Below are positions 9,970-45,425 of a stretch of 64,000 nt of DNA, piece by piece (positions within the stretch are counted from its first letter, which is position 1; every line of letters begins with the position of its first letter). The notes under the pieces are model-generated. The model saw only the letters and a list, made by a program, of their open reading frames with translations, did not search any database and had not been told where the DNA came from. The DNA is from Ananas comosus (taxonomy: Eukaryota > Streptophyta > Magnoliopsida > Poales > Bromeliaceae), in contig NC_033630.1 in the NCBI RefSeq assembly GCF_001540865.1, forward strand, positions 6,702,338-6,766,337. The letters are read 5' to 3'. Position numbers and translations under genes: made by a program.

Positions 9970-12786
9970 TTACTCAAGCATCTTGAGAACCTCTGCCATT
10001 GTTGCTCTCTTGGAGGGATCTGATTCTAGGCATTTTTCTGCAACATTGAACACTTTCTTAACCTCTTCAAGAGGAAAACACTCCAAGGCATCATCAATTG
10101 CATGTTCTTCCCTTGTTCCTTCTACAATTTCTTTCACCTGCCACACCACATGTTTTGTAAAAGTTAAGATGTCATCTGACAATTATCAAAATATGGGTTG
10201 ATTGCACCATCGGCCCCTAACCTTTATCCTGATTGTCACTTTGATACGCAGCCTTTTACTTTTTGCAATTAGGTCCCTAAGGTCTATTCGCTCCAATCAA
10301 GTCTCTTCATGAAAAGGCCCATAGACTCAGACAAAAATTGCCATGTCTCAAAGCTCGCTGTTGATGTGGTGAGCAGGTTTGATGCTAACACGGAAATTTC
10401 CATCAGAGCAAAGGGACTTTTTGACTGATGTGACTTGATTGAAACAACTAATAGATCAGAGAACCCACTTTTAAGAATCATAATTTTTGGGCCCAAAATG
10501 GAAACTCAGGTGAAGGATGGAGAACAGTGATGTAATTAACCTTCAAAACATGAAACTGGGAGAAAGAAAAACATCTTCATTGATATTCATTATTACTGAC
10601 AAATTAAATATAACTAATAAATATTTCATTGTGATAGTAGAATTCATGAGATTGAATTTATACTGGTAATCAGGGCTAAGAAAAACTAGCAGAAATGTTT
10701 GTTGTATGAAGAAATACAATTTATTTTATCCTATTGAGCTCATCTATGACTAGTGTAATAGGGCAACTATAAGCTTTCTCAAAGCCAAGGCAACAGTTTT
10801 GTGTGCACATTGCTTGATTAGCTGAACTGTGATTATGTTGATTGTGAACATTAACAGAAATTGATTCTGATATTTAAGACAAGTGATTGGCTGGTAATAG
10901 CATTCCATTTAGTCGTTATCTAGATTGAAAAAATAAAAAGAACTATCGAAATTATTGGGTAATATATATTTGAAGATTCCAATTCAATGCATCAAATTTC
11001 ATACAAAAAAAAATCGGAGAAAATGTTGTCATGCATAAAAGATGACGAGTTTTCTAACTTTGACATGGCTATTTTGTGGTCTACGCTAATTAAAATCTGC
11101 ATAATCTGAATGATTCAACATCTCTAAAGCACAGATTGTAGCATACTACTATTGTTACATAAAATGTTTGAAATGATCTACTGTTTAATTGATTTGACAA
11201 CATACAGGAAGACCCCAGCAGAAAATAGTAACATATTGAGGAACGTGGATAGTTATCACCTCAAGATAAGAACATAATCTTCTAAGGATATATTGGGAAG
11301 ATCCTGTCAGAACATTAATAGCATTTATCGTTGCAAAGTTGGCCTGAAAATATAACTAATCTGTAGCTCAGAGCGCATAACTGAACCTAAATGAAGTAAC
11401 GAAGCAAAGGATTGTTTTGCTCTTTCTTGGTGTTGGTTTGGCATGATTTGTTGTGAATCCAGTTTGTAATATTGAACACTTGATGAAACTGTCAAATGCT
11501 TCGTTCTTTACAGAGATTGATTGTGAAAATTAAGGGTGATATCTTGTAGCTTATTTATTTCTTTTCTAATTTCATGTGTAGGAAGTAACAGGACCTGGAT
11601 GTCATAATGGTTTTAGTTGAATTTCGAGAACATTTAGAAACTGATTAGAGAATGATATAAATATGATTGCATTGAGCTTAATGGATGGGAAAGTTACCCA
11701 GGTTACTAGCTTGGTGCCATTTTCGATAAATGATTCATCTGTTGGTCTTTTACCAGTAAGTAGTTCAAGCAAGACCACGCCAAAGCTATAAACATCCCCT
11801 TTTGTCGTTGCTTTGCCCGTATCGAAGTACTCTGTCAATAATAACAATAAGATTGTAATATCTCAACAGAGAGTGGACCAAAATGTTTTTATGATCATGC
11901 ACTGCACCTGGAGCAAGATATCCGAAAGTCCCCGCAACAACCGTTGAGACGTGACTCTGGTTGGCTTCCATGAGGGTCGCCAATCCAAAATCAGACACCC
12001 TTGCTTCCATGTTTTGATCCAGCAGTATGTTGCTTGACTTGATATCCCTATGGATTATACGTGGAATACAATCATGATGAAGATACGATAAACCCCGTGC
12101 TGCACCTACTGCTATTTTATATCTTGTTGCCCAATCCAACGTTTCTTGTTTGCTTGATTTGCCTGTATTAGTAGGTGTCAGAACTTGAACTTAACTGGTA
12201 TCTTATAAATAACATAGTTTAGATGGTACATCATGGCCACATCAGTACCATGAAGTAATGTATCCAAACTTCCATTGGGCATTAGCTCATAAATGAGAAG
12301 ATTAAACTGAGGTGCTATATAATATCCATGGAGAGGGACAATGTTCCTGTGCTTTATGTCACCCATTGCATTCAGCTCTCTTTCGAATCCACGATCTCTT
12401 TCGCAGTTTCCTTTGTTCAGTTTCTTCACAGCAAATGTTGTAGTATCGTTTATCATCAACCGGTACACAGTGCCGTAACCACCAGAACCAAGGATGTCCT
12501 TGTTTGATAACTTCATGGTTTTCCTCATTAAAAATTTAGCACAAAGAGATTGCGTCGTGGTGGAACGAAACATTACCATCTTCCCACCTGTTGCAAGTGA
12601 TGTCAGTTTGCTCTGTTTTATCTATATATCTGAAATCAAAAGGATACTTTTACCTGATAAACTATTTTCAATGATTCGGCGCTTTCTTGCCCACTTTTTG
12701 TAGAGGAGGCATGAAATGACAATCTTTGATATGACGAATGCTACACAGCAAATCGTAATGTAGAGCACCATAGTTGGCCTCTTCAT
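9970..12786 (-). CDS. Receptor-like Ser/Thr kinase without ectodomain (At1g78530-like)
   Basis: A five-exon model closes exactly: 12786-12654, 12587-12249, 12162-11908, 11831-11698 and 10137-9970. It has GT-AG introns, totals 1029 nt and encodes 342 residues. A membrane segment (about residues 7-29, [20 protein letters not shown]) directly follows a five-residue start, so there is no extracellular domain. The kinase domain has the glycine loop GSGGYGTVY (78-86), ATP-binding Lys99, helix-C Glu115, HRDIKSSN with Asp197, DFG with Asp215 and GTFGYLAPE. It is an RD kinase with all key residues. Sequence and length agree with the Arabidopsis At1g78530 family, whose role is poorly known. Start choice: the ATG at 12786 precedes the membrane segment in frame. 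The 1560-bp intron 4 carries a transposon-like insertion. Confidence 0.92.
10196..10541. mobile_element. Non-autonomous transposon in kinase intron 4
   Basis: The left end GGTTGATTGCACCAT and the reverse of the right end GGTTAATTACATCAC pair as a terminal inverted repeat with several transition differences. The interior has no coding capacity. A clear target duplication was not identified. It lies wholly inside the intron between 10138 and 11697. Confidence 0.55.
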
Positions 12787-13455: not shown

Positions 13456-13654
13456 GCTTGACCTGGAACACTTGCCTTTCTCTATCTCGGCCACCTAATC
13501 ACGTTTTGTCGCCAATATTTCCATTTTTTTCCAATACTACCTGTACGTCGTTTTNGCTTGACCTGGAACACTTGCCTTTCTCTATCTCGGCCACCTAATC
13601 ACGTTTTGTCGCCAATATTTCCATTTTTTTCCAATACTACCTGTACGTCGTTTT
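13456..13654. repeat. Exact 99-bp duplication around an N (assembly join)
   Basis: 13456-13554 and 13556-13654 are identical over 99 bp and are separated only by the N at 13555. This is the pattern of two contig ends that overlap but were joined end to end. It is probably not real DNA structure. Confidence 0.85.
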
Positions 13655-14412: not shown

Positions 14413-14427
14413 TATATATATATATAG

Positions 14428-14655
14428 AGAGTTCGGCTGGAATACTATCGATAGCACCAAGGGATTGGTGCTATCGAGTTTTCTATTGTTAAATTTAACC
14501 CTTGATTATTTTTACCCATTAGATTATACTATTCAACCAACCACCCACTCAACCCTAGGGGGCCCACATAATCCTAACCGTATATTTTTCAATCCAACGG
14601 CTAAAAAACTAATAGCACCAATGGCTTGGTGCTATTAATAGTATTCCAGTCTAGT
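14428..14655. mobile_element. MITE in a TA repeat (copy 2, related family)
   Basis: It starts GTTCGGCTGGAATACTATCG, ends with the inverse (AATAGTATTCCAGTC) and has a second inverted set ATAGCACCAAGG/TTGGTGCTAT. It is flanked by TA runs. Its interior is related in inverse orientation to copy 1. A third relative is found at 18481-18684, but only when that stretch is complemented without reversal. Confidence 0.8.
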
Positions 14656-16773: not shown

Positions 16774-17860
16774 AGCTGCATTTAAAGGACACGGGGGTCA
16801 GAAAAACACAAACACTCGACCCAATCAACGAAAGTCTCGAAGGNCATCGAACACAACCACTATTAGCTATGAACAACCTGCGGCTAAACTGAATCCTCTT
16901 TTGGGGCTTCACTATCTGTCAATGTCCCACAGCCCGCGGCAGCCCCGTCCGCCACCCGGGGTTTCAGCCAAAACCAATGAACCCAAACCGACCAATCCCG
17001 GACTAACTCGAGCTGTCTCGATGCGACGTATGAGCCGACCCATCGAGGGGGCTCACGGTGAGGCCTCAATCCGAAACACGAAAGCGCAGCCACAGCCCAT
17101 CACGTCCAACCTGAACGAGAGGTGACTCCAAATCTCACCCCCATCGACACGTCAGTGTTGGCCCGTGCCCTGCCCACGCAAGTGTCAGGGTCCCTGCCCA
17201 CGCAAGTGTCAGGGGAAGCCTAAGCCAGACCAACTGAACTCAGATATCCACAATCAAAACCCGTACTATCGTATCGCTGAACATCGACATCTCTCAAAGG
17301 TCGAAATAAAAGAAGATAGAACGAATGGGACATCTGAATCACTCACCTGGCTACAACAAATCCCGACGTGGGTGACTCCTGATGAACGAAAATATCATCA
17401 AGAGTGCGGGAGAAAGAAGGTGGCTATAACGTCCCGGAAGACAAAGCCGACGACGAGGAAGACTCCGCCTGGCGCCCTTTCCGCACCGCTCAATCTCGGA
17501 TGGGAGGCTCATGTCACGATCTCCTGAGGGCGACGTCCATCACTGTCAAAAACAAGCCCGCGAAAACATGTATGTCAACTTGAGTGACCTCGCTCATCAC
17601 AAGAAAACATAGGCACCGACTACATCCATATAATTCAAACAATAAAGATGGACGAACAAATAACAAATGAAGTCGAGATATGATGACGAACATCATAACA
17701 TACAAATATGTCCAAGTCGATGCGAAGCATATGGCCTCTTTAAGAGAACATATGCCGCCTAAACAGCCGCACGGGCCCCCTGACACGTCGGGCCCCGCAC
17801 TGTGAGGGAGTGGCTATATTGCAAAACTTTTTTGGGGAGTGAAAAGATAAAAGATAAACT
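16774..17860 (-). mobile_element. Probable leader/LTR remnant of the gypsy element
   Basis: GC-rich sequence upstream of gag, distinct from the AT-rich DNA that starts at about 17825. It includes a small tandem duplication CCTGCCCACGCAAGTGTCAG at about 17168 and 17192, and one N at 16844. It is positioned where the 5' LTR and leader should be. I could not find a second LTR or a clear primer-binding site, so limits are uncertain. Confidence 0.5.
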
Positions 17861-18280
17861 CACCCTGGTGGAGTTGAAGATAAAAAAAAAAACAAACACA
17901 AAAACTTATAATTATTTTAATAATTAACAATCAATTCAATTATAAAATAGTTTAAATTATTGATATATACAATAATTGATAACCAACCAAATTAGAATAA
18001 AAGATTTACACTAAATTAAATAGTTTAAACCACTTCAGTTGGTACGTAAACTATTTTAAAAGTTTTGAAAATTCAATTCACCAACTGACACCATTGTCTC
18101 ATTAATGAGTCTATTTAAAATTAATTAATTTTATTATTTTATTAATTTCTACATACTAAAAAATTTATAAAGTTTAATTTTTAATAAAAGTATTAACTTT
18201 GTTTGTTGCATGTGTTGTTTCCCTAGAAAAAAAACAGTACTCAATAGCTTGAAACGGTATTATAAAAAAAAAAAAGTTTT
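17861..18280. other. AT-rich sequence of undecided orientation
   Basis: Very AT-rich, with too few CpG or GpC steps to tell whether it belongs to the normal sequence or to the complement-only block that follows. No gene recognised. The left edge of that block lies somewhere in here. Confidence 0.4.
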
Positions 18281-18480
18281 ACCCCAAATAAATGTTAATA
18301 TGTAACTAATCACTAACGTAAATCGTTATTTACGCCGATTAAACAATGTACATCATAGTAAAATACTTTACGACCTATAAAGTCACCGTAAGTGATTACA
18401 TATAGTATAAAATGTTAAAATTATCATTTAGTAACGATTTAATAATTTATATTACCTTAACTCGAAAATATACAAATTTT

Positions 18481-18684
18481 CATGATTCAGTAATCACGAA
18501 TAGCCAAAAGCCAGAAACCTAATTCCCTACACGTCAATCTTATTATCACCAGGGGATCCCAACTCACACACAAACTAATTTATCATATTAGATTAATTAC
18601 TTTTATCAGTTTTCTTATCTAGATTGCCATCTTTTGAATATTCGTAGTTCATGAACCACAAAATTTTCGTGGTATCGGCCTGAG
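18481..18684. mobile_element. MITE relative visible only after complementing
   Basis: Complemented in place, this segment reads GTGGTCCCCTAGGGTTGAGT, AAATAGTATAATCTAAT, GTAGAAAACT, CTTGGTGTTT and AGCCGGACTC, in the same order as the reverse complement of the MITE at 14428-14655. It therefore belongs to that family and lies inside the complement-only block. Confidence 0.8.
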
Positions 18685-18817
18685 TTACATTATCGATAAA
18701 TAGTTCATTACAACAATTAATATAATTAATCATACTAAATTTAATTACAACACCTCATCTACGACGATTCAATATTTAAAAAACATCACATATATAGAAA
18801 AAAAGAAAAAAAAGAAA

Positions 18818-19280
18818 AAAACTCTCTATCTATCGTGCGATGGGCGAAGTAAATAAAATATTTCTTTATTTGAATCGACCTTTACTCTTAGTTAATCCTA
18901 AGCTTGAACCCAGAGCCCATAGTTGGTGGTTCGGGAAACGGTGAACGAAATCCCTGCCAGCCAAAAACATCACATATATAGATCCATATGTAAAACGATG
19001 AAAATATCCATGTGTCGGCATATGATGATTTTCTTAAATGTTCAAGTTTTGCAACTTCTTCTTGATCGGTTTATAAGTTTACGATTGATAATCTATTCGT
19101 TTCATCGTTTTCTTACCACTTTTTATACAAAAAAAAAAAAAAAAACTCTCTATCCATCGTGCGATGAACGAAGCAAATAAAGTAAATTTTTATTTGAATC
19201 GATCTTTACACTTAGTTGATCCTAAGCTTGAACCTTGGAACCCATGGTTGGTGGTTCGGGAAATAGTGAACGAGATACAG
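18818..19280. repeat. Direct repeat of about 140 bp inside the complement-only block
   Basis: As printed, the words CTCTCTATC, ATCGTGCGATG, TTTGAATCGA, CTAAGCTTGAACC and GGTGGTTCGGGAAA occur in the same order at 18822-18955 and 19145-19278. A smaller pair, ACATCACATATATAG, lies at 18782 and 18966. Being a direct repeat, it survives the block's orientation error. No gene recognised from 18.7 to 20.4 kb; pyrimidine-rich sequence fills 19790-20060. Confidence 0.7.
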
Positions 19281-20399
19281 TTTATATTCCTCTATACCAA
19301 TTTGAGAACTTGATAAAATACATCTTAGACTCTTTCACGTGTTAGTGTTTATTTTTATTTTATTGTGGTGAACTTTATTATTAATATTTTTATTTCCTCT
19401 TCTGTAGTTCTTCTTAATTTTTTTTATAACATCTTAATCTTTATAATGATTTTGTTTCGTTTTTTATAGTTCTTCTTAAAAATTTTTTATGATGTGTTAA
19501 TCTTTATGATTTTTTCTTTTACATTATCTCTTTTGAAGGTCATATAGATAGAGTTTAAAACATGTCTATACTATAAGAAAAAGAGAGTTTAAACGAATCT
19601 ATGTTAAGTGCTGCCACCGCCGTCGACACCTACTCTTACCATTCCTTTAAAAGCTCCCTTAAATTGATGTTGCATCATTACCATTTAATTGTATTATCAC
19701 AGTCTCTCCTACTTAGTGTTACCTACAACCTCTCCCCTCGATTACTATTATATCATCCCTCGTAACGACAAATTAATTAAAACCTAATCCTAGATTCGTC
19801 ACTTTGTGCTTAGGTAGCATACTTTGTCTCTCCACTCTCCTTTACTTCGTTTCCTCTCCTCTCTCCTTTGCTGTTAAGTAACTCGCTCCTCTCGCTCTCA
19901 TATACTTTGCTACTACCTCCTACTCCACCTCCTCCCTCTCACTCACCGTTGCGTAGCCCACCTCTCTCGGCTAAGTTCCCGTTCCTCTTCCCCTCCAAGT
20001 CAAGTCACTTCTCCGTCTACTCCCACTTCTTCTCTGACGGTGCGTCGTCTCAATAACTTTTAAGTATAACGGATTATCTGTCTAAAACAATTAATACATT
20101 TAATATTTATACGGCATAACAAAACTACATAATATGCATATTCTCACTGAGATAGTACAATACATAGAGTAACTCGAAAATATGTGCCATATTTTTATAA
20201 ATGATAATTAACCATTTAAAAATCGATGTAGGTTCATAGACATTTAGATAGCTGATATAGAAATAGATAATAAAAAAGATAACGTATAAAACTGGAATGG
20301 TGAGAAACTTAATATCAATAAAAAAATTAATTTTTAATCTAAAAACTTTATTTTCATAATCTACCTAACTTTTTACTATTTAAGATGCTACTTGAACCA

Positions 20400-20830
20400 C
20401 GTACGTATTTATGCACAAAAATCCATAAAATTGGCATCTGAGGTGGCATGCATGCATCGCCCTCTCGGTAGCTTGCTTGCTGGTTTTCTTTGCTGAGCAA
20501 GCTCGCGAAGCGAGGAGAGGGAGCAAAAAAGGGAGGTAAAGTTTGGGATTGGGATCGTTCGAGTTGGGGCAGGGGCTTGGGGAGCTTTTTGGGATCGTTA
20601 AGGTTAGAGGAGGAGGCGAAGTAGAGGAGGGGCAAAGAGGTTGAGCAGTAGCAAGAGGCTTAGGGAAGAACTAGGGAGGCTGGGTGGTTAGAGCAGGGGT
20701 AACCTGGGCCACGGGACTTTTGGAGCAGGTGCAAGTGCCTAAATTGGGGCTTAGGTAGGAGGTTAACCACCGCTTTTAGCAGCTAAGCACTGGCCCCCTA
20801 ACCTATAAAATCCAGTTCCACCACGGTACC
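20400..20830. promoter_or_regulatory. EPL1: 5' leader of the EPL1 gene (complement reading), CpG-rich
   Basis: Complemented in place, this segment becomes CpG-rich and contains CAAACCCTAACCCTAGC (20541-20557; includes the telo-box AAACCCTAA) and a second AAACCCTAGC near 20589. It also has CTCCTCCTCCGCTTC-type pyrimidine tracts, typical of plant 5' leaders. It lies 0.4-0.8 kb before the EPL1 start codon, so a leader intron is likely in between. Interpretation is inference from composition and position. Confidence 0.6.
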
Positions 20831-21212
20831 ACCAAGAAAGAAACGAAATGATCTTGGTCCCGTAATGGTCGATTCTCACTTCAACACACAATCCAGTAAA
20901 ATGCAGCTAAAGGGGAGACCCAAAATCATTAACCCTATCCCCTAAGATCTCAAAGGCAAAGAACAACGTAACTCACTCCACAACAAACACGACTAACCCA
21001 ACCGCCGGATAAACTTCATACAACACCACTTACCACTCGATATCACCGAGCGCCCTACTAACTACCTGAAAATTCACTACCCTATCTCATTAAACATCAA
21101 CCAAAACTCACAGCTTAAGTGACTTAACACACAACTCGAAAACAACTAATTTACCACCAACACCTTACTCGTTCCCCTCTCACCAGCCACAACCTTCTCT
21201 CTACTTCACCTA

Positions 21213-24200
21213 TACTCATCCAACAGTAAATCCGGAGCAGGAGAGCTGTAGTTGTTCTTCGAGGGTTATCAATTTAGGTAGTCTCTCAAACTCCTACTGC
21301 TACGTGGTTGGTGGCCTCGAAGGTGCGCGTTGAGCGTGGACGACGCCCGACGCCGTCTTCGGCTATTGCTCCATTTCTACTAGTGAGGAACCGTAAAAGC
21401 TAAACTTAACACAACAAACTTTTTCCGTGCCTTACGTACAAATCGTGGTGAAAACGATGACATCAAACTACGTTGGTGGAGAAACACTTCGCGTTGTTTT
21501 TTCACACCTCGAGAACAACATCACACTTAGACTTTACTCTAAGACTCGACTTTTCGTATTCAAGGCTAAGTAAAAGACAACGTCTTTATCACATAATGTC
21601 ATATCTCGAAGAACGGAAGAAGATTATCGTGATGCGTTCGTGGTGTATTAACGGAAAACGACGTACCCCTTTGGCTTTACTATAAGACTCCGGTTTTTTG
21701 TATTCGAGGTTAAACCTCGAAAATAAAGACGATGTTTCTATTGCCTAATGTAATATTACGAAGAACGGAAGAGGATTATCGAGATGAGTTTGTAGCATAT
21801 CAACTAGTTGTGATTTGGTATGTTGTCCATTGTATAACGGACGTGGGATACATAGGTATCTAAGGTATGTGGAATACGTGCCACATGATTATAAACTACT
21901 GGTACAAAATCTTAGTTTTAGATTAAGTTATTTACACTAGATATGATAAATTTCTCAGATACGTATTTTTAGTGTATAAAACTAGTATATCCTTAGTTCT
22001 TCAGGATTTTTAGTTGTTATCTTTTTCCAGTTAACAAACTAAAATATCCTTTAACTACATATTTTATATATTATAACTATACATCCGGAAAGTTTACAGT
22101 GTATTGAATAGGTTACCTAATCTAGGATTAAAACTCCGGAGGTAGTGTCTCAAAACTCCTCACACCACATACCCTACATGAGTATGGGGGCGTACGTCCG
22201 TTATTAACGAGGATGTTGTCCCGATTTGTCCGGAAACCGATCCAGGTAAAACAACCAATCTCGAAGATGTTTACGTGACAAATTCATCTTGATAAGCTTC
22301 TACGGGTTCGATAAAAATATTTTACCGATCTCGTTATCTTCAAGATTCAGTAAACTTGAAGGACGGTGTGCTTTTCAGAATCTGAAAAACAACGCGTTTA
22401 CGGACCGATAATGAAGGGTGATGTCTTCGACAAGATCTTCAACCCGATCTGTCCCCGATATGTCGATCTAGATTTTGATCCAAAAATTAATTACTCAAGG
22501 TAGAATATATTTCTCTTATGACACTATGTGATAGAAAACTATCTTAGTTGATTAACCGTAGCTATGAAGACGAAAAGATCCACGTATCTCAAGGGCGTTT
22601 CTTTTCGAGTTCACTTTAAGGATGGGGCGTTAAGTTACAACACCTATGTATACTTTCTCTAATACGAGCGTGGAAACGTGTTGGATGTAGCATAAACGCA
22701 CCTTCTCCTCCAAACAAATTGGTAAAGTGAAACAATCATGACATTAATTTATTACGAAGAAGACTCGTAAGTAATGAAAGACGTCGGTCTCGACTCTAAC
22801 CGCTTAAACAACTCATACTATACCTGTTACTCCTACTCCTAACCGAACTTCTCAAATTGGTACTCGCCTTCTAAGAATGCCGACTTTTCATTTTTCTAAA
22901 ACAGAGTCGGATTCGTCGGAAAAAAAATTAATAATAATATTAAAATATGTAGAGAAAGACTAATAAATCACTTTACAGTAATCGAAAGAACTACATTCCC
23001 TTCGATATGTACTACCCGTCACGTCACGTTAAAAACTCTTTAAATAAAACACTCAAAAACCTGAATACAACCAATTACGAAAGAAAGATATCAAACCACA
23101 GAGGTTCAGAAAAGGACCAGTCGAACCAAATAGTTATCAGACAACACACTATGTTTTGACATCGATCGGAAAAGATATTACTTGACGACGTACAAGTTCC
23201 GAAGAACAATCTCAATCAGAAACTTAACAAGTAAATTTTACAGAGTGAATAAATACACCGAACGTTCACCCTTTGAAAGAACATAACGTTCACCATTTAA
23301 TTTAACACATTTGTCACCTTCGGAAAAATACGATTAAAAAGATTAAAAATGGAACTATCAGAAGTTCTTGGAAATATTGATGTCACGAATATCTTTCGTT
23401 GATCATAAATGTAATCTGAAGAAACTCGTCGAAGGAGAAGTACGTATCTTACATTACTTTGGTCATTATCTTATACAATCTACGTTCTTAGATCGATATA
23501 CGAATTTAGTTAAACATCGATCTGTTTGGGGGTTTTCTATCCGAGATTCCTAAGTAGTCGTTCAATGATAATTATTAAAACCTTTCACAAGTACGGAAAA
23601 TAAAACATTAGCTAAAAGAAAAAAAGAAAAAAGAAAAAATGGTTAGAAACACATTTGTTATTATGAGGGAACTAGAAATAAGTACCCTATTAACTAATTA
23701 CTTTCCCAGAAGGATCGATATACCACTTACTATTTAAACATCCGTTACCGTACCACGATTACTATCAAAGATTAAGACAAGCTTGTTAAGATAGTAAGGG
23801 AAACATGACATCAAACATATATTTAGTTAGCTTAGGTACTAGGTAAAATGACCTACGCGAACAAAAACAACGCAAAACGTTGTAATCACGAATACGTTAT
23901 ACAAGTAAAGCACCAGTGTGCTACGACCGTGTCGACGTATACCAGTTCATACACACGTTGTATATCACTAAGAATACTCTTAAAACCTTCCTTGTCACGA
24001 GTCTTTTCACACATCATCCATGTATTACTGTTTCTCCTAACTATTGTTTACCCTTCGTGGCGTCACCCACGATACTTGAGTTCTACCCGAAACGTATAGA
24101 CAATGATTAAGTAAAAAAGCATCATCAAGTTAAAATTAGAAGTGTTACAATCGCTATATAGAGTACAATTTAAGTACGATCTTAGTTTTAAAATACTTGA

Positions 24201-26162
24201 CTTTTAATATTTCCAGTTTTAGTATACTTCGACTCTTATACTTACTAATCTATGACCTTTCTAAAGTATTAAAGTATCTCATCATCTTTCGTTGTATTGA
24301 AAGGTTAGTAAAAAGGAGAGGGAAAGAGTGTAAACTTGAGCACACTGTTCAATTTTGAGGGAAAGATGCTTGTACACGTTCGTACGTTACTACACGAACA
24401 GTCGTTGTTCGTGACACGACTAAACTGAGACCAACCATGCACGACTTCATTTCAAGAAATTAATTGTTATTCGATCGATGTAAACCACTATACACGTAAA
24501 CATCAGCCTTAGGAAGATGCATTATATAGCATCATGGAAAGATTAAAGAACGAAATCAACGGTGAAAAATAAAAGATTTTAACCTTCGATTATTATACTC
24601 TAACCATCTTCAGTCGTTAGTATAGGAGAATCGACTGTTAAATTAAACTGATAACATAAAAGAAATATTATAGTGATTATAATTTTGATCAAGAAGCGTT
24701 AGCACCAATCACGTAAGCTTCAGAAGAAAACTAATGCTTTTAATTAAACTCCGACAATCCAAATATAAAAACGTCCATAGGAAAACATGAACTACTAATA
24801 TTCACATGTAGACAAAAATAGGTCTAAACTCCGGGAAGACAAGTTTAACCTTCAAAACCTAGTATTTTGAGCTCTTTCTCGTCCTCAGTAATGAGGGTGA
24901 GAACCCAGTGGATAAGGTCAGAAAAACGTCGAATTAAGACGATATCTCCACTTCTACTTGGAAAAAAAAGGGGGAGAAAGAAAACTCCTAATATTATTGT
25001 GAACTATTTAAAGAGTAAGAAGATCGAAACATTGAAGTGCGATCAGTACCACAGCTATGTAAATCATATAATACGAGGTATACCAAGAAATGGATCCTGA
25101 GATACAACGATAATTCATACTTGGCACTATATTACCGGTACACAAGTTAAGTAAAATGAATAAGTAAATAAGTTCAAGTATACAAGCTAAATACCAGCCT
25201 ATGAACAATTGTCATAAGAGTAATACATACTCTTAATAATGAACGAGGTACAACACCGGAAAACAAAATTCAAACCGTTTTATAGATTAAACGTATTAAC
25301 TAACCGAAATTGTTATGAGAAATTGTCAAACAGGAAATCGTCAACTTGACAAAATACCAGTAATCAATTGCACAATAAAGTTCTTAAATTCACGGCACCG
25401 TGCCCCAGCACGGTCTTTGAACGGCCGTGCCATGCCATGCCACACACGGCCCGACACGTCTACGCACATCCAGTGTTTTTTATAGACACACGGCTGTGCA
25501 TTACCGTACTTTATAAATAAAAGAAATCGTTGCTTTATACAGTTAATAAATAATACATAAAAATAGTTTAGAAAACTTGAAATAACTCTTTTAAGGAATG
25601 ATTAAAGTTCTTATCTCCCAAAACTCAACACGGTAGCCGTGCCCCCGATATAGCACGGCTATAAAACAACCGTGCTATGCCGTGCCACCTATGCCGGGTA
25701 CAGCTACCCGTGAAATTAGGAACACAATAAATATAGGACGGGAAAGAATCTATGAACCTCTACTCAGAAAATAACTAGGTTAGTTATCAATTACGTTTAA
25801 TATAATTAAACCGATACAACTAAACGTTTATACATGTTAGTCGATTCTAAGAAAACCATTTAGTGGAGACGAATAATATACTACGATTTAGCAATGTATC
25901 ATTCCTTACACAGTTAATGAACCCTGACTTAGAATTTGACATTTCTGAATTAACCAATCATATTCACAATAACGTGATACACAATAACGTAGCCTTTTCG
26001 GGAATTGGGAAAATTAGTAGGAGAATATTAAAACAATCACAATCTTTTCAGGACATTAAGAAAATTAGTAGGAAGATTAACGGAAAAAGAGGGGTCCGTA
26101 ACGTCAGGAATAGACATGCTATACGTCAAAAAGCCAGACATATATTGATGACCTTTCGTTTC
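21213..26162. CDS. EPL1: Enhancer of polycomb-like protein, first five exons, on neither strand
   Basis: Read as the complement in increasing coordinates, ATG at 21213 opens MSRLSFRPRPLDINKKLPIV, the exact style of plant EPL1. Exons: 21213-21371, 22581-22710, 22786-22888, 24825-24948 and 26097-26162. All introns begin GT and end AG, and the joined 582 nt give 194 codons with no stop. Landmarks are IPTPQFNVVDTYERDY, RAEIGEFVEYDMDNEDEDWL, ERAGVITPTLGSPIPV and VYNYWKAK, the conserved EPcA region. EPL1 is the scaffold subunit of the NuA4-type histone acetyltransferase (piccolo) module in the nucleus. The gene stops at a donor site at 26163; the second half of the protein is not in the window in any reading I tried. 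Printed-strand ORFs inside the interval are meaningless. Confidence 0.93.
25391..25710. repeat. GGCACG/CGTGCC-rich repeat in EPL1 intron 4
   Basis: Clusters of CACGGC, CGTGCC and GCCGTGC words at 25391-25500 and 25630-25715 flank an AT-rich centre, forming a loose inverted arrangement. It probably represents a non-autonomous transposon in the last visible intron. It is inside the complement-only block, so its true sequence is the complement. Confidence 0.55.
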
Positions 26163-26190
26163 CATACGAAGTAAACACATTCTACTAAGA

Positions 26191-26222
<32 letters not shown>
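26191..26222. repeat. TA/TG microsatellite at the likely right edge of the block
   Basis: A run of TA dinucleotides followed by TGTGTGTG. It follows exon 5 of the EPL1 gene by about 30 bp. A simple repeat of this kind reads alike in several orientations and would be an easy place for a wrong join. Confidence 0.7.
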
Positions 26223-26700
26223 ACTATCCTGGGTATCCATCGCACAAAGCCCACGACGATACAATGCAACACGGCTCCTAGAGCTAAATCCGGCAGTGTA
26301 TGTAAATGACGATCAATTCGGGGTTTTCTCCTAAGTCAAATCCAAGTCCAACAAGTATCAATTATCACCACTCACTAAGCATGCTCCCAATTCAGGTTTT
26401 TAATATACTAATCCATGAATTTGAGCTACCTCATTTAGTGTTCAACGAACAAAGCATACAAGTCGACTAATATGTACTTAGAGGCAAAAACCGATGAACC
26501 CACCTCTCAAGCAACTCCTGGCAGCGAAGAAAGTGGCCCGGATCCAAATTGATCCCTCGCTGGTCCGTCGAGGTCCCCGGTTCTCCTGCTGCGAAGAAGT
26601 AAACCCAATTACACTCAAAATCACGAAATCTGCCCAGAAAACAGCAGCGAAGAAAATATTAAATCCGACCAAGCTAACCTTATCCAAATTCAGCAAACAA
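26223..26700. other. Intergenic, no gene recognised
   Basis: Orientation is undecided for the first 120 bp. From about 26341 the CpG/GpC balance is normal again. No protein recognised. Confidence 0.4.
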
Positions 26701-26711
26701 AGGTTCTGAAG

Positions 26712-27240
26712 CTTCGTCTCGAAGTCACGAATCCAATGGCCCAGGTTTCGCTGAATTCCGACGCTTCTACGCAGAGAACGGGCCAGAATACGAAACGTCG
26801 ACGCTGGAACCTGCGAAACAGCATCTCTGAAATCTGCTCGGCAAACAGCAGCCTAGTAAAACTAGGGTTCGACAGGGCAAACCTGCTCCAAAAATTGCGA
26901 TCTTGGGCTCAGAATCTTCGTCTCGAAGTCGCGAATCTAGCACGCCAAATTTCGTCGCGTTTCAACACTCCTACACAGAGAACTAGGTAAAACACGGCGG
27001 GTCGATGCTGGAATCAGCAATCAGCACTTCAGAGTCTGCTCGGCAAACAGCAACTCAGTAAAAAGGGATTTCGACAGAGCAAACCTTCTCCAAATCGGGC
27101 GAGTAAGGATCTTATGATTTGTCTTGAAGTCTCGGTTCCAACGAATCAAGTCACGTCACGTTCCGATGCTCCTGCGCGGAATACGAGTCAAAACTCTGCG
27201 GGTCGATGCTGGAATCAGCAGCAGCAGCAGTGCAGTTTGA
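26712..27240 (+). repeat. Degenerate tandem repeat, period about 204 bp
   Basis: The landmark CTTCGTCTCGAAGTC lies at 26712 and 26916, with a diverged version (TTTGTCTTGAAGTC) near 27117. Other shared words are AACAGCA, TCTGCTCGGCAAACAGCA and GGTCGATGCTGGAATCAGCA. Three units are visible and the third ends in a CAG run. Not evidently coding. Confidence 0.75.
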
Positions 27241-28184
27241 AAATCGTAGAAGTTTAAAGCCATAAAAGCGATCTCAAGGAGCCACTCACCTCGACAAACC
27301 CTCCCTGCGAGCAGCACCTCGTCGAAAACTCACTCGATCCGCTCCGCGGCGCGTCGTCGACGAAGCTCGAGCTTCTTTTGAGCTCCTCCAACACTCTAGG
27401 TTGTTAAGGAAAGTAGAAGGAGAGGAAGAAGAAGCACAGCAGCAGCAGCATGAAGAAGCTCCCCTCTCTCTCTCCTCTCTGCTCCAAGGTAAGGGTTAAA
27501 GGGGGGGTGATGTGACAAGATGGCCAAAAAGTCAACTTGCACCCTGCTTCCACTTTGTACCGGTACAAACCCAGATTTGTACCGGTACAGCTCACTGAAA
27601 ATCTGCTATTTCGCAGATCTTCAAGATACACGCTGCTCTCAAGTTCCCACAAGGCCCGTTTGGCGTCCACTTCACGCCAACGCGACCCGGACTTGTCCCG
27701 ACACTCTCCAGAGCTGTCGACAAGCCTCAGCTAAAATTCCAGATCTCTACATCAACAAAAGGCTCGAAGAAAATAGCTCAACAAAATGCTCAATGTGGTA
27801 TAACATTCACCGAATATGTTCAATAAATAAAAGAAAATGGTGCAATCTGTTCAATGTTTTAACGCAAATGGTGCAACGAGTCCATAACCAGTCAAAATTT
27901 TCTTTATATTTGGTGATATAATCTGAAGATAATAGTACAAATAAGTCCATAAATTTTTCTACGGCGACGAACGACGTCCCCTCCAAACGTAGGCGAAGCG
28001 GCGGCGGGGCAGGAGGGTCGGCGGCGGGGGCGGCATTCGAGAGGTACAACATAACACCTAAATGATTAAATAAAATAATAGAGTAACATCTCTTAAAAAA
28101 GCTTACTTCCTTATTTTAACCGTACAATAATAATGCAACGTGAAACGCGAAAAATAGTCCAACGCGGCATAAAAGAGTGCAACT
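27241..28184. other. Repeat-edge sequence with two TGTACCGGTACA palindromes
   Basis: Contains the palindrome at 27556-27567 and 27578-27589, matching the cluster at 531-695. A CAG/GAAGAAG run lies near 27420-27455, and a GC-rich patch (GGCGGCGGGG) at about 27995-28035. It ends exactly at a HindIII site (28185), the cloning boundary of a BAC insert. No gene recognised. Confidence 0.5.
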
Positions 28185-28222
28185 AAGCTTGAGTATTCTA
28201 TAGTGTCACCTAAATAGCTTGG
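28185..28222 (+). other. BAC vector remnant (HindIII site and SP6 promoter side)
   Basis: AAGCTT (28185-28190) is followed by the SP6 promoter complement CTATAGTGTCACCTAAAT (28198-28215) and TAGCTTGG, then the N at 28223. This is the known right flank of the HindIII cloning site of pBeloBAC11/pIndigoBAC-type vectors. It is contamination, not plant DNA. Confidence 0.95.
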
Positions 28223-29701: not shown

Positions 29702-31638
29702 AGTTGGTGCACTTTCATATTTCTTTTTAACTAATTTGAAGGAAGTCGGCTATCACAATGCCGGAACAGTGGAGTTTATAATGGATACGCTTTCTGGACA
29801 ATTTTATTTCATGGAAATGAATACTTGCCTTCAGGTATTAATGCTTTTCTTAACTAATCAGGCACACTGTTATCAGCTATTTCTACCTTAAAATGTTCAC
29901 ATTCAAAATACTTTTCTATGTGCACGATTAAATTTATTCTTGTACACACTGTTTTGGGAAACTTCCATTTTGTATGCATGTGCACTAGAATATACATGTG
30001 CAACTTGATCCTTACATGCAAATTGCTGTTGTGCGACAGAAAATATATACCTGATTTCTTATATCAATATTTTGAAGGTAGAACATCCTGTAACTGAGAT
30101 GATTGTTGGCCAAGATCTTGTGGAGTGGCAAATTCGTGTTGCAAATGGAGAACCTCTTCCCCTGACTCAGGAACACGTGCCCTCGAATGGTAAACTTTGT
30201 TTAATGTGATCACACATTTTCAATCGTGCCCGTTTGACAAACTTGAATTCCTATGTGCAAACTGCTAGAATGAGCTATTGTTCCCTCTTCAAAACTTGCA
30301 ATTCTAGCCATATTATCTACCTTTACTCCATTTCATGACCTGCACTTATTTGACACTGGGCCATTATTTCTCTTCTAGGACATTCCTTTGAGGATCGAAT
30401 ATATGCCGAAAATGTCCCAAGAGGTTTTCTTCCTGCAACTGGAACCCTACACCACTACCGGCCAGTCCCTGTTACCCCAACAGGTAATATCTGCTACTGA
30501 AACATAGTACATATGCTTATTGCTACACACATTAGGTAGTATTAGCTAATAAAGCCAGTACACATCTAGAACTCGACGTCTTCCATGACTCAACAATGAC
30601 CCCTAATCTACATATTGTAAAACAGTGAGAGTCGAAACGGGAGCAGAGGAAGGAGATACTGTCAGCATGCATTATGATCCAATGATTGCTAAGCTTGTGG
30701 TGTGGGGCGAAACTCGCAATGCTGCATTGGTCAAACTAAAGAGCTGCTTGTTAAACTTTCAGGTGCATGTGACATGTCTAGTTGCTTTTGTATGAATATC
30801 AGATCAAGATATTATCATCAAGTTTATTTAGCATTTTCTTGTAAGTTCCAGCTGCTTGATGCCAACGAGCACTGTTGCTTAGTAATAATAGATGGATTGT
30901 AATTCTTGTATAGTCGTATCTCACAACGTCTTATTGTTTGTCTTAGCAATGCTACAATTTTGATTGAAGACATGTGGTATATAAATTTCTAACAGATGCC
31001 AACTAATAGTTGTCTTGTATAATCTTAAGGTAGAGAATCTACTTCCAGAATGATGCACTTTCGATATATTTTTGTATCGTGAACAATTTCATGCTGTTCG
31101 CTTTATATTGAAGCATCTGAAGTTATTTCATCATGGTAATATATTACTCTTATAAATGCGTCAAATTGTTCGAGTTCACTTCTATATTTGTCAGTGATAA
31201 GAGATCTGAAAATTCTGATATTTCAGTTTCTCTCAACGGCCAGATTGAAGATAGTAATTCTCCTGCTTTGGATGTCAAAGCTGTGCGCATAGGAAACAAT
31301 TATTTCAGAGTTGAAGCTGGTGGTCTGCATATGAATGTTACTTTAGCATCTTATTCTAAGGTCTGCTTGTCAAATATAACGTTATTACTCCTAAAATCTT
31401 TTTTATTTCATAAAAATTGATGAATCAAATTGTTTTATTTCATTATCTCTTAAGTTGATTTGCTGATTCGCTGCCATTAGGATAGTAGCACGCGCGCACA
31501 TACATATCTGGCATGGCGAGCATCATCATCATTACAGGCAAACTGTGAAGTTTGACCAACCCAGTGATGATGTCTGCTGGGCTAAAGGTTACTGCTGGGC
31601 AGCAAGTGTTTGACACTAGCGTCCTTTTCACTGTTAAG
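29702..31638 (+). pseudogene. MCCA: Methylcrotonoyl-CoA carboxylase alpha subunit, partial pseudogene
   Basis: Exons with splice borders remain at 29702-29834, 30078-30189, 30379-30483, 30626-30762, 31195-31360 and 31481-31638. They encode [80 protein letters not shown] and FRVEAGGLHMNVTLASYSK. MCCA is the biotin-carboxylase and biotin-carrier subunit of the mitochondrial leucine-degradation enzyme. This copy cannot work. The N-terminal half of the carboxylase is absent, and exons after KSCLLNFQ are missing. The catalytic Arg of EMNTRLQVEH is Cys (TGC), and the last exon is frameshifted. There it jumps from KFDQPSDDV straight to GLKVTAGQQVFD, deleting the whole biotin-attachment (MKM) segment. 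Confidence 0.9.
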
Positions 31639-32888
31639 GTATGTCTGCTGTGTTAATAGTGACTTCTTCATGAGATACCACGTCTTAAGGCCCTTTTATC
31701 ATGCTCAAGATTGGATTGAATAGAATTAGACTAGAGAGTTATGTCGGAGGAGAGCGTTGTTTTAACAACTTGGTAGTGCTAAGGTTCGCGGCGCTAGGGC
31801 TTGGTCCAGTGGATACAACAGAATTTCTGAATTCAATCTTGTTCAATCCCAGTCCTAACCTCTTTCTTGTGTGGGATCAATATTCCCAGCCTAGTGGGAT
31901 TATTTGACCCGCTCCCCTTTCGCAACCCCTAATGCATTTGAGTTGCTAAACCCTCCTACCCAATATTGCTCTATCCTCTAATTTCATCCAACCCACTTCT
32001 GGGTGCCGAACAGCCCATAAAGTAAATTTGATGATGACTGATCTTTACCTGCAAAATTTTATCTACTAGTTGTGTTATGCTGAGCCCCATAATTTTTCTA
32101 TCTCCAGGAAAAATAAAGCGAATTGGCATCAGGAAATGCTGACGGTATCAGATGTCGACTGCAAATTTATTTAATACATATTTAAGCATTCAATGCAAGG
32201 AGGGAACAAAGTTGCTATCCGGATGTTCTAGTCCAAGGAAAGAATTCCTGTCCAGGTGAGAATATGCGTTGAATAATTGAAGTGGGAGTTTGTATTGAAA
32301 TTGGATTCATCTTTTCGCACTTTGCTACCAAGTGAGAATATACTTGAATGAGAAAATTGAGGTTATATGGAATTCTTACTCATTGGTCCATCGCCGTTAA
32401 GTACTTGAAGAAAGATCCCTGACCTTATTTCTCTTAATTGCAATCGAATTACAGCCTCAGTATTTAAATGATGCTTCAGAGTGTAAGACATCTAGAACTG
32501 GAAAAAAGAAAAAGAAAATGATAGTACCTGTTGATCTTTCTCTTAACTGCAATTGAATTACAGCCTCAATATGTAAAGGATGCTTCAGAGTGCACGGCAT
32601 CTAGAATGAATGATAGTACCTGTTGATGTTTCTCCAGGCTTCTGTGCTCTGTTAGCATATATTTTTCTACTGTGGATGCATAGCCTTAAGTATTTGCTGA
32701 TATTTCTCTATTGTAAGATAATTGAAAAGATTGCAAGTTTGCAACTTAAACAAACTCAGCAGTTTAATTAAGTATGGGGGATTTTGTGGCTTTTCTTGTT
32801 CCCATTTTGTCTGGCTAATATTTAGATAGATCTTACTTATCAGTAGTCGTGCTCTTGTGAGGTTGTTAATGTTTGGTCTATTTGACAG
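31639..32888. other. Spacer between gene fragments, with a local duplication
   Basis: No coding exon recognised. A direct repeat of about 105 bp lies at about 32426-32535 and 32536-32632 (CTTAATTGCAATCGAATTAC / CTTAACTGCAATTGAATTAC, both followed by AGCCTCA, GATGCTTCAGAGTG, CATCTAGAA and ATGATAGTACCTGTTGAT). A segment starting GGCCCTTTT at 31690 and ending GAACAGCCC at about 32013 might be a MITE, but its ends pair poorly. Confidence 0.5.
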
Positions 32889-33504
32889 GCAGAGCAACAG
32901 ATGGAAGAAAACATGCTTCTAGGCAACGGGATTGTCTTTTCAAGGTTATTCGAAGCCCTACCTTATGATGGTTCTGGAGACAAGATCAAGCTACCGCCTT
33001 CTTGCTTCAAAGAGCTATCTGATCAAGGAGCCCTGTATAAAGGTTCTATGTACTTTAGGTTGTCCAAAGTTAGTGAAGGAGGTCCCCCAACTTCTAATTC
33101 CAGCGAAAATCAAGATATGAAAACAACAACTCATTCAGGAGTCCTCGAATTCACTGCACGAGAAAATTCTGCAGAGCTGCCTCGGCATGTCTGGACAAAA
33201 TTATTCCCTGGTAACAACGTTGAAGTTCCTTTAATTGAGGTGCGGTATGTCAGCTTGCCAAAAGGAACTTATGCGAAGCTTAAGCCCGAAGCAGTGGGCT
33301 TCTCTGACCTTCCTAACCATAAAGCTTCAGTACTCGTGCGACCCTGTCAGAGGGCGATGTTATCACAGTCTATTATGGAGAGCTGCAGTACAAGTTAAGA
33401 GTTCTAGAGCTCAAACCTTCTTCGAGTGTTTCAATTTTAGAAACAGATATCGAAGTCGATATAGAGGGATCTGATTCTGTTTTGGACAATGAAAATGAAC
33501 AGCA
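32889..33504 (+). pseudogene. UFD1-domain zinc-finger protein fragment (PRLI-interacting factor K type)
   Basis: After the acceptor TTTGACAG (32881-32888) the frame reads AEQQMEENMLLGNGIVFSRL, KIKLPPSCFKELSDQGAL, THSGVLEFTAREN, VPLIEVRYVSLPKGTYAKL and GFSDLPNHKA. That is the UFD1 domain as found in the plant UFD1/zinc-finger family (Arabidopsis At4g15420 type), whose members are linked to Cdc48-dependent ubiquitin processing. About 20 bases are missing near 33328-33340; reading resumes in another frame as TLSEGDVITVYYGELQYKLR and LETDIEVDIEGSDSVLD. At 33503 the exon stops in mid-frame and joins the right half of the dispersed repeat. No zinc fingers and no upstream exons are present. It is a broken captured fragment. 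Confidence 0.85.
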
Positions 33505-33645
33505 TCCATATTCAAATTCAATTCAATTAGTAGTAAATGAATCATATATTATATATTGTAATATTGTAGACACCAGCCTAAAGAAGTGGTTTACTAAAAA
33601 CAATTAATATATTTTTTAAATCAATCTATTTATAAGAAAAGGTCG
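33503..33645 (+). repeat. Right half of the split repeat
   Basis: Matches 50568-50710 closely: ATCCATATTCAAATTCAATT, CAATTAGTAGTAAATGAAT, ATATTATATATTGTAATATT, AATATATTTTTTAAATCAAT, AAAAGGTC. The junction with the UFD1 exon is sharp at about 33503. Confidence 0.85.
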
Positions 33646-34214: not shown

Positions 34215-35545
34215 TGAATCCTAAGTATATGTATTAGGATTCAGTTGGATTTGAGATTGACTAGGTCCTAAGTATATGTATTAAGATCTAGTCAATATTA
34301 GACTCTATGTATTAGAGTCTAATTGGCTCTAAGTATATGTCTTAGAGTCCGATTATGTCCACCTTGGTTATATGTTCCAAGATGGAGATGTGACCAGACC
34401 TCAAGTATATGTATTGAGGTGGGTCGAACTAGATCCTAAGTATATGTGTTAAGATCTAGTCGATATTAAACTCCATGTATTAGAGTCTAATTGGCTCTAA
34501 GTATATGTCTTAGAGTCCGATTATGTCCACCTTGGTTATATGTTCCAAGATGGAGATGTGACCAGACCTCAAGTATATGTATTGAGGTGGGTCGAACTAG
34601 ATCCTAAGTATATGTGTTAAGATCTAGTCGATATTAAACTCCATGTATTAGAGTCTAATTGGCTCTAAGTATATGTCTTAGAGTCCGATTATGTCCACCT
34701 TGGTTATATGTTCCAAGATGGAGATGTGACCAGACCTCAAGTATATGTATTGAGGTGGGTCGAACTAGATCCTAAGTATATGTGTTAAGATCTAGTCGAT
34801 ATTAAACTCCATGTATTAGAGTCTAATTGGCTCTAAGTATATGTCTTAGAGTCCGATTATATTCACCTTGGTTGTATGTTCCAAGGTGGAGATGTGACCA
34901 GACCTCAAGTATATGTATTGAGGTGGGTCGAATTACCCGAAAGTGGAGAGTGGCTAATTCCCGAGTATATGTATCAGGATTAACCGAGTTTCACTCTAGT
35001 TATATGTGCTAGAATGAAGGTCTGACTAAGCCCTAAGTATATGTATTAGGGGTAGTCGGATTTGAACTCTAAGTATATGTATTAGAGCTCGATCGGGTAA
35101 GGATTTCACTCTAGGTATATGTGCTAGAGCAAAAGGCTGACTAGACCCTAAGTATATGGGTTAGGACTAGTCGAGCACGGTTTGACTTCCACTCTAGGTA
35201 TATGTGCTAGAGCAAAAGACTGACTAGACCCTAAGTATATGTGTTAGGGTTAGTCGGGCATGGCTTGACTTCCACTCTAGGTATATGTGCTAGAGCAAAA
35301 GACTGACTAGACCCTAAGTATATGTGTTAGGGTTAGTCGGATGAACTCTAAGTATATATGTTAGAGTTCGAATAAAGTTGATATCATTTGACTGAATTCT
35401 AAGTATATGGCTTAGAACTCTGTCGATTTGGAGATGTTTCGCCTTAGTTATATGTGCTAAGGCGATTGACTTAGCCCTAAGTATATGTATTAGGGGTAGT
35501 CGATATTTAATTTTTACTCTAGGTATATGTGCCAGAGTAAAAAAA
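34215..35545. repeat. Array of hairpins: constant 9-nt loop, varied matched stems
   Basis: Many units have the form stem-(G/T)TATATGTN-stem. Examples: 34215-34243 TGAATCCTAA/TTAGGATTCA, 34398-34420 ACCTCAA/TTGAGGT, 34864-34888 CACCTTGG/CCAAGGTG, 35109-35129 CTCTAG/CTAGAG, 35343-35369 GAACTCTAA/TTAGAGTTC and 35441-35463 GCCTTAG/CTAAGGC. The loop is always 9 nt, while the stem sequence changes on both sides together. Part of the array (34264-34935) is a higher-order repeat of 168 bp in four copies. No coding capacity. Confidence 0.88.
34264..34935 (+). repeat. 168-bp higher-order tandem repeat, four copies
   Basis: The landmark GATCCTAAGTATATGTGTTA recurs at 34432, 34600 and 34768, exactly 168 bp apart; a diverged first copy begins at 34264. 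Each copy contains several hairpins of the array described for 34215-35545. Confidence 0.9.
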
Positions 35546-38500
35546 GGGTTCACGATGAGATTTGGGTATTGGTTCATGAGATTTGAGTATTGGCTCATGA
35601 GATTTGGTTCATGAATTTGGATATGGTTCATGAATTTGGTGTATGGACTTGGTTCATGAACTTGGATATGGTTCATGGATTTGGTGTATGGATTTGGTTC
35701 ATGAACTTGGATATGGTTCATGGGTTTGGTGTATGGATTTGGTTCATGAACTTGGATATGGTTCATGGGTTTGGTGTATGGATTTGGTTCATGAACTTGG
35801 ATATGGTTCATGGGTTTGGTGTATGGATTTGGTTCATGAACTTGGATATGGTTCATGGGTTTGGTGTATGGATTTGGTTCATGAACTTGGATATGGTTCA
35901 TGGGTTTGGTGTATGGATTTGGTTCATGAACTTGGATATGGTTCATGGGTTTGGTGTATGGATTTGGTTCATGAACTTGGATATGGTTCATGGGTTTGGT
36001 GTATGGATTTGGTTCATGAACTTGGATATGGTTCATGGGTTTGGTGTATGGATTTGGTTCATGAACTTGGATATGGTTCATGGGTTTGGTGTATGGATTT
36101 GGTTCATGAACTTGGATATGGTTCATGGGTTTGGTGTATGGATTTGGTTCATGAACTTGGATATGGTTCATGGGTTTGGTGTATGGATTTGGTTCATGAA
36201 CTTGGATATGGTTCATGGGTTTGGTGTATGGATTTGGTTCATGAACTTGGATATGGTTCATGGGTTTGGTGTATGGATTTGGTTCATGAACTTGGATATG
36301 GTTCATGGGTTTGGTGTATGGATTTGGTTCATGAACTTGGATATGGTTCATGGGTTTGGTGTATGGATTTGGTTCATGAACTTGGATATGGTTCATGGGT
36401 TTGGTGTATGGATTTGGTTCATGAACTTGGATATGGTTCATGGGTTTGGTGTATGGATTTGGTTCATGAACTTGGATATGGTTCATGGGTTTGGTGTATG
36501 GATTTGGTTCATGAACTTGGATATGGTTCATGGGTTTGGTGTATGGATTTGGTTCATGAACTTGGATATGGTTCATGGGTTTGGTGTATGGATTTGGTTC
36601 ATGAACTTGGATATGGTTCATGGGTTTGGTGTATGGATTTGGTTCATGAACTTGGATATGGTTCATGGGTTTGGTGTATGGATTTGGTTCATGAACTTGG
36701 ATATGGTTCATGGGTTTGGTGTATGGATTTGGTTCATGAACTTGGATATGGTTCATGGGTTTGGTGTATGGATTTGGTTCATGAACTTGGATATGGTTCA
36801 TGGGTTTGGTGTATGGATTTGGTTCATGAACTTGGATATGGTTCATGGGTTTGGTGTATGGATTTGGTTCATGAACTTGGATATGGTTCATGGGTTTGGT
36901 GTATGGATTTGGTTCATGAACTTGGATATGGTTCATGGGTTTGGTGTATGGATTTGGTTCATGAACTTGGATATGGTTCATGGGTTTGGTGTATGGATTT
37001 GGTTCATGAACTTGGATATGGTTCATGGGTTTGGTGTATGGATTTGGTTCATGAACTTGGATATGGTTCATGGGTTTGGTGTATGGATTTGGTTCATGAA
37101 CTTGGATATGGTTCATGGGTTTGGTGTATGGATTTGGTTCATGAACTTGGATATGGTTCATGGGTTTGGTGTATGGATTTGGTTCATGAACTTGGATATG
37201 GTTCATGGGTTTGGTGTATGGATTTGGTTCATGAACTTGGATATGGTTCATGGGTTTGGTGTATGGATTTGGTTCATGAACTTGGATATGGTTCATGGGT
37301 TTGGTGTATGGATTTGGTTCATGAACTTGGATATGGTTCATGGGTTTGGTGTATGGATTTGGTTCATGAACTTGGATATGGTTCATGGGTTTGGTGTATG
37401 GATTTGGTTCATGAACTTGGATATGGTTCATGGGTTTGGTGTATGGATTTGGTTCATGAACTTGGATATGGTTCATGGGTTTGGTGTATGGATTTGGTTC
37501 ATGAACTTGGATATGGTTCATGGGTTTGGTGTATGGATTTGGTTCATGAACTTGGATATGGTTCATGGGTTTGGTGTATGGATTTGGTTCATGAACTTGG
37601 ATATGGTTCATGGGTTTGGTGTATGGATTTGGTTCATGAACTTGGATATGGTTCATGGGTTTGGTGTATGGATTTGGTTCATGAACTTGGATATGGTTCA
37701 TGGGTTTGGTGTATGGATTTGGTTCATGAACTTGGATATGGTTCATGGGTTTGGTGTATGGATTTGGTTCATGAACTTGGATATGGTTCATGGGTTTGGT
37801 GTATGGATTTGGTTCATGAACTTGGATATGGTTCATGGGTTTGGTGTATGGATTTGGTTCATGAACTTGGATATGGTTCATGGGTTTGGTGTATGGATTT
37901 GGTTCATGAACTTGGATATGGTTCATGGGTTTGGTGTATGGATTTGGTTCATGAACTTGGATATGGTTCATGGGTTTGGTGTATGGATTTGGTTCATGAA
38001 CTTGGATATGGTTCATGGGTTTGGTGTATGGATTTGGTTCATGAACTTGGATATGGTTCATGGGTTTGGTGTATGGATTTGGTTCATGAACTTGGATATG
38101 GTTCATGGGTTTGGTGTATGGATTTGGTTCATGAACTTGGATATGGTTCATGGGTTTGGTGTATGGATTTGGTTCATGAACTTGGATATGGTTCATGGGT
38201 TTGGTGTATGGATTTGGTTCATGAACTTGGATATGGTTCATGGGTTTGGTGTATGGATTTGGTTCATGAACTTGGATATGGTTCATGGGTTTGGTGTATG
38301 GATTTGGTTCATGAACTTGGATATGGTTCATGGGTTTGGTGTATGGATTTGGTTCATGAACTTGGATATGGTTCATGGGTTTGGTGTATGGATTTGGTTC
38401 ATGAACTTGGATATGGTTCATGGGTTTGGTGTATGGATTTGGTTCATGAACTTGGATATGGTTCATGGGTTTGGTGTATGGATTTGGTTCATGAACTTGG

Positions 38501-42825: not shown

Positions 42826-43004
42826 TGGGTTTAGTTTAACGACTTTTCGGTCGTTTGGATTTGGGTTTAGTTTAACGACTTTTCGGTCGTTTGGATTCAG
42901 GTTTAGTTTAGCGACTTTTCGGTCGTTTGAATTTGGGTTGTTTAGTTTAACGACTTTGCGGTCATTTGATTTGATTGTTTAGTTTAACGACTTTACGGTC
43001 GTAG
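42826..43004 (+). repeat. Tandem repeat of 37-43 bp (TTTAACGACTTTTCGGTCG)
   Basis: Five units built on GTTTAGTTTAACGACTTTTC plus GGTCGTTTG follow the minisatellite directly. Units diverge progressively to the right (TTTTCGG, TTTGCGG, TTTACGG). Confidence 0.85.
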
Positions 43005-43140
43005 GTTTTATTTGTGGACTTTGGGTTTTGGCATTTTATTTGTGGACTTTGGGTTTTGAAATTTATTTGTGGACTTTAGGTTTTGGGTTTATTTGTGGAC
43101 TTTGATTTTGGGATTTATTTGTGGACTTTGGGTTTGGGTT
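43005..43140 (+). repeat. Tandem repeat of about 27 bp (TTTATTTGTGGACTTTG)
   Basis: Five units of TTATTTGTGGACTTTGGGTT(TTGG) with small length changes. Confidence 0.85.
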
Positions 43141-43149
43141 GGCTTAATC

Positions 43150-45040: not shown

Positions 45041-45425
45041 TCGTGTTGATCAAACCGACAAATAAATCGCTACTATACGTTTGCACGTATACACTAATCC
45101 GCCGTCGTCGGAGAAGAAGAAGAAAGAGGCCATGAGGCCTCCTCGCGCGCCATTGTCGTTGTCAAAGTCGTCACAACGCCGCTACCGCCGCCGCCGTCGC
45201 CGTTGCGCGTCCTCGTGCGCCATTGTCGTGGTCGAAGTCGTTGTCAGCGCGCCGTTGTCGACGTCGTCGTCGTCGTCATCGCCGCCGTCATCGCACTGTT
45301 GCCGTCGCTCTCTTCTTTTTTTTTTATCTTTTCTTTTCTTTTGCTTTCTTTTTCTTTTCCTTTTTTTTCTTTTCATTTTCTCTTCTTTTTTTTTTTTCCT
45401 CCCTCCAAGAGAGCCTTTATTTTGA
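45041..45425. repeat. Low-complexity GCCGTCGTC and poly-pyrimidine tract
   Basis: CGCCGCCGTCGCC-type trinucleotide runs (45180-45300) pass into long T/C runs (45310-45405). Open frames here are low-complexity (Arg/Ser/Phe runs) and not believable genes. Confidence 0.7.

Follow-up and report, generated by a model that had tools for sequence, protein, structure and literature searches.

The question raised by this locus is in which strand polarity about 8.5 kb of the pineapple (Ananas comosus) assembly is written. The window, i.e. the whole stretch of DNA that was analysed, spans 64,000 nucleotides. A first-pass annotation had claimed that within it neither printed strand of a long block is natural, and that natural DNA appears when each base is complemented and the printed order kept. 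Composition, gene homology and repeat homology all agree with that claim, and the block reads as natural DNA only once it has been complemented and left unreversed.

Composition and k-mer polarity

In the printed sequence of 17900-26260, CG/GC was 1.83, (CA+TG)/(AC+GT) was 0.78 and TA/AT was 1.12, whereas five natural stretches of equal length gave 0.65-0.87, 1.22-1.34 and 0.80-0.85, respectively. The three ratios thus turn over jointly in the block, which is the pattern demanded by a polarity flip. The CpG:GpC counts reported earlier proved exact on recounting (19:3 in 22201-22500 and 19:0 in 23161-23520).

Inverted misassemblies are common, and the block resembles one in being a multi-kilobase, wrongly oriented segment within a contig. 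A true inversion, however, is readable on the other strand, whereas this block is readable on neither. The polarity ratios are unchanged by reverse complementation, so an ordinary inversion cannot cause their turnover. Moreover, a six-frame search (E 1e-6) found the gene described below, EPL1, in neither printed strand. We therefore regard a proper reverse complement, whether a genuine inversion or an inverted misassembly, as extremely improbable.

A 4-mer polarity score, trained on the flanks with the tested stretch excluded from training, was calculated in 500-base windows. It was negative in 14 of the 16 windows of 18001-26000, with a minimum of -50.2; the exceptions were 20001-20500 (+8.3) and 20501-21000 (+2.9). 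In the natural training flanks, 6 of 82 windows scored below zero (minimum -11.7) and 71 reached at least +10. The remaining 30 windows, belonging neither to the block nor to the training flanks, included eight negatives, namely those starting at 17001 (-4.1), 26001 (-0.9) and 33501 (-9.0) and five inside or adjoining tandem arrays. A two-state HMM also assigned natural polarity to 20407-20526 inside the block. The natural-scoring segment 20001-21000 lies between EPL1 on its right and a MITE-like repeat on its left, both found in the complement only. Reversal-sensitive composition is therefore turned over in the block except at 20001-21000, and the gene and repeat homology of the block needs complementing without reversal.

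An unusual natural composition, such as that of CpG-rich repeats, could in principle be mistaken for polarity, and the HMM indeed called three further segments reversed (34299-35378, 42826-43112 and 44262-45277). These overlap tandem arrays, and five of their 500-base windows scored from -18 to -45. In tandem arrays, k-mer polarity mirrors the repeat unit, and the reversed-looking score of these arrays probably reflects the unit's own composition. When the complement was searched against the window (E 1e-4), no match was listed inside the three segments, and one low-complexity self-match was found at 45308-45405. The block, by contrast, has no reported tandem array, and its gene and repeat homology is independent of composition. 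A purely compositional origin of the signal is vanishingly unlikely.

The tandem arrays themselves (34260-35340 and 42823-45400) adjoin a 45-bp satellite array at 35601-42813, with about 160 copies and 99% matches. CpG:GpC was 101:48 in 44501-45500.

EPL1 exons and repeats in the complement

The complement, read in printed order, contains five exons of the chromatin gene EPL1 (enhancer of polycomb-like), located at 21213-21371 (with ATG at the start), 22581-22710, 22786-22888, 24825-24948 and 26097-26162, the last followed by a GT donor. Joined, they form 582 bases in a single open frame of 194 amino acids, and each of the four introns starts with GT and ends with AG. The EPL1 gene with five in-frame exons and GT-AG introns proposed in the first-pass annotation is thus present, and a Pfam EPL1 match accompanies it. 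The 167-residue join of the first four exons in the complement matched positions 79-164 of the 166-position EPL1 profile (PF10513) with 56 bits (E 9.5e-15). The curated cut-off is 25.4 bits, which places the fragment in the family. The same join retrieved nothing at E 0.001 in a search of solved structures. Relatives comprise about 450 residues, and the window holds only the first 194; the EPL1 at the block is a gene fragment, with no full family member at this place. The part of EPL1 after residue 213 of protein P0001 was absent from both polarities of the 64-kb window, where only 3-4 chance-level matches (E 0.39-0.79) were obtained.

A homology search with the EPL1 query retrieved 440 proteins. 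Of the best 120, the first came from Ananas comosus (87% identity, query coverage 100%) and the second from A. comosus var. bracteatus (99% identity, query coverage 89%). The alignment with the var. bracteatus protein contained one difference in 172 aligned residues. Against isoform X2 of Ananas comosus, the differences were N72S, Y188H and one at the isoform joint. Judged by protein similarity, the EPL1 of the block is closest to that of pineapple among the best 120 of the 440 relatives. It shares with the Ananas comosus gene LOC109718652 (PF10513) the five exons and near-identical protein residues. Unlike that gene, it is written complemented without reversal, and the exons past the fifth are absent from the window.

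The correspondence extends into the introns. Pineapple isoforms X2 and X3 include stretches that are intronic in the main form, and these correspond to the complemented sequence at 22982-23050, with 22 of 23 residues in agreement, and to that starting at 24778. Such intronic agreement identifies the source as pineapple or a very close relative. A biological process reversing polarity, or the natural evolution of a mirror-like sequence, would have to account for a complement in which exons, splice sites and intron fragments are preserved almost base for base, and no mutation path gives that. To our knowledge, no enzyme changes strand polarity. We found no evidence in favour of such an origin, and its probability is practically nil.

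Polarity was also compared between loci by matching 360 listed relatives of three genes against the print and against the complement (E 1e-6). All 120 EPL1 relatives (the best 120 of 440) matched the complement and none matched the print. The opposite held for both flanks: the 120 listed relatives of the UFD1-like gene on the right (32886-33505) and the 120 of the At1g78530-like kinase on the left (9973-12786, minus strand) all matched the print, and none matched the complement. The relatives were recruited by queries taken from the tested readings, so these counts give the polarity locus by locus and are no unbiased survey.

Two repeats are likewise readable only after complementing. The first, at 18475-18659, matched 14638-14455 with 72.4% identity over 185 bp (E 4e-22). 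It had been reported as a MITE of this window that reappears in the block, and the repeat of 14455-14638 was indeed recovered there; its copy outside the block is associated with an inverted repeat (14417-14485 / 14669-14602). The second, at 26301-26380, matched the minus strand at 16925-16848. Over its first 70 bp (26301-26370 versus minus 16925-16856), blastn gave 88.6% identity and E 2e-19. The alignment score of the complement was 112, versus a maximum of 67 among 100 shuffles. The printed, reverse-complemented and reversed readings scored 25, 47 and 28, respectively. In the copy outside the block, the match runs to 16848, close to a contig end marked by the N at 16844.

We also observed AAACCCTA boxes at 20542 and 20588 in the complement, shortly upstream of EPL1, and none in the printed block. 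This motif is common close to plant gene starts.

Block edges and the surrounding contig

Taken together, composition, the 4-mer score, the HMM, change points, the gene and the repeats delimit a complement-only block at 17835-26440 (~8.5 kb), with edges that are uncertain: the left one lies within about 17.4-18.1 kb (more narrowly, about 17.8-18.1 kb) and the right one within 26.38-26.7 kb (more narrowly, 26.4-26.5 kb). Change-point models of order 2, 3 and 4 placed the left edge at medians of 17748, 17937 and 17826 (widest 5-95% range 16949-18139) and the right edge at 26479, 26448 and 26437 (widest range 26383-26699). The repeat matches served as constraints in these estimates, confining the left edge to positions before 18475 and the right one to positions beyond 26380. 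The second repeat matches as far as 26380 (16848 in the other copy), so the block must extend to 26380 or further. The interval of 17900 to 26260 given by the first-pass annotation is therefore right about the location of the block and too short at its right end, by at least 120 bases. The right edge of 26194 suggested by the HMM was dropped for the same repeat match.

Single Ns occur in the window at 13555, 13803, 16844, 28223 and 63742. The contig containing the block (16845-28222) lies between the Ns at 16844 and 28223, and its natural-polarity ends measure ~1.0 and ~1.8 kb. Its last 38 bases, 28185-28222 (plus strand), comprise a HindIII site and cloning-vector sequence identical at 38 of 38 positions to plasmid record NZ_CP135179.1, just before the N at 28223. 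We take this segment to derive from a widely used cloning vector, on its SP6 side. Vector sequence at a contig end points to BAC data, and the sequencing of pineapple F153 relied in part on BAC pools (PMC6139296). Exact duplicates flank two of the five Ns, with 99 bases at 13555 (13456-13654) and 95 bases at 63742 (63644-63926), as when overlapping contig ends are joined and the overlap is left unmerged.

The window may also combine sequences of different loci. Among the listed pineapple proteins, that of EPL1 is encoded on a contig of 12,612,916 bp. The kinase of the left flank, which was 100% identical to a pineapple protein across the 243-residue query, belongs to one of 13,112,115 bp. In the F153 reference, the two contigs presumably correspond to separate linkage groups. 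The kinase, however, lies in another contig of the scaffold than the block does, and the best hit of the right-flank UFD1-like gene carries no contig assignment. In its vector end, its pieces of possibly different loci and its single-N joins with exact duplicates, the scaffold resembles a BAC-derived chimera. The difference is that chimerism alone leaves strand polarity unchanged.

Origin of the block

The best explanation, and almost certainly the right one, is a sequence-handling artefact in the pineapple assembly. On the simplest account, ~8.5 kb of correct DNA carrying the first five EPL1 exons probably underwent a half-done reverse complement, and it probably stands at the wrong locus. 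The complement reading, the identity of EPL1 and the locus-wise polarity control all support the data error in assembly or file handling that had been suggested before. A correct pineapple piece of ~8.5 kb would have been joined into the contig during one of these processes, possibly when BAC-pool contigs or long reads were being joined. Reverse complementation would have been needed at that step and one half of it done, leaving in the file a complement without reversal. If the complement alone was taken, the true plus strand would be the reverse of the print; if the reversal alone was taken, it would be the complement of the print. The later EPL1 exons, which were sought to tell these two apart, were absent from both flanks of the block.

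That the block is probably misplaced as well as flipped is suggested by the different pineapple contigs of EPL1 and the kinase and by the absent EPL1 end. The alternative is a flip in place, in which the block is native to this locus and was wrongly written there, without misplacement. Consistent with it, the block edges carry no N and the block lies inside one contig. The kinase is in another contig, separated from the block by the Ns at 13555, 13803 and 16844, and the fault may accordingly lie in the scaffold joins and not in the placement of the block. The EPL1 remainder (after residue 213 of P0001), however, is missing from the 64 kb in either polarity, and EPL1 and the kinase sit on contigs of 12,612,916 and 13,112,115 bp. 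We consider a flip in place rather unlikely, while giving it appreciable weight.

The half-done reverse complement favoured here has a parallel in database records mistakenly entered reversed or complemented, in which one of the two steps was likewise omitted. Such slips are known in general for whole records, whereas here an internal block of a contig is affected. Phrase matching in 5.39 million open-licence papers yielded a few papers, none of which, judged by title and start of the abstract, dealt with reversed-but-not-complemented blocks; the phenomenon may nevertheless have been described.

The artefact carries no new biology, and its interest lies in assembly quality. At this place, gene models, read mapping and searches of both strands all miss a real piece of EPL1. 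Strand polarity is testable by composition alone, since CpG was below GpC and CA/TG above AC/GT in the five natural stretches and both relations were turned over in the block. Composition polarity could therefore be a cheap check for plant assemblies. It is conceivable, albeit somewhat doubtful, that the flip was a repeatable fault of a joining tool or script and that further multi-kilobase, gene-bearing blocks of a public plant genome escape homology searches. If so, a scan of CpG/GpC and 4-mer polarity would reveal them genome-wide and in other assemblies.

Elsewhere in the window, tRNA and Rfam scans of the 64 kb gave nothing. To the right of the block, the var. bracteatus protein P0202 matched two carboxylase-like exons together with the UFD1 gene (30390-33505), as well as 51857-52045, 18 kb beyond. 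Judging from these matches, the public gene model of P0202 looks like a fusion of neighbouring genes. A copia-like retrotransposon, labelled as such by eye from its translation, was located at 56680-61951. Its single open frame on the minus strand (57530-61543) comprises 1338 codons and lies between direct repeats of 440 bp that are 97.5% alike.
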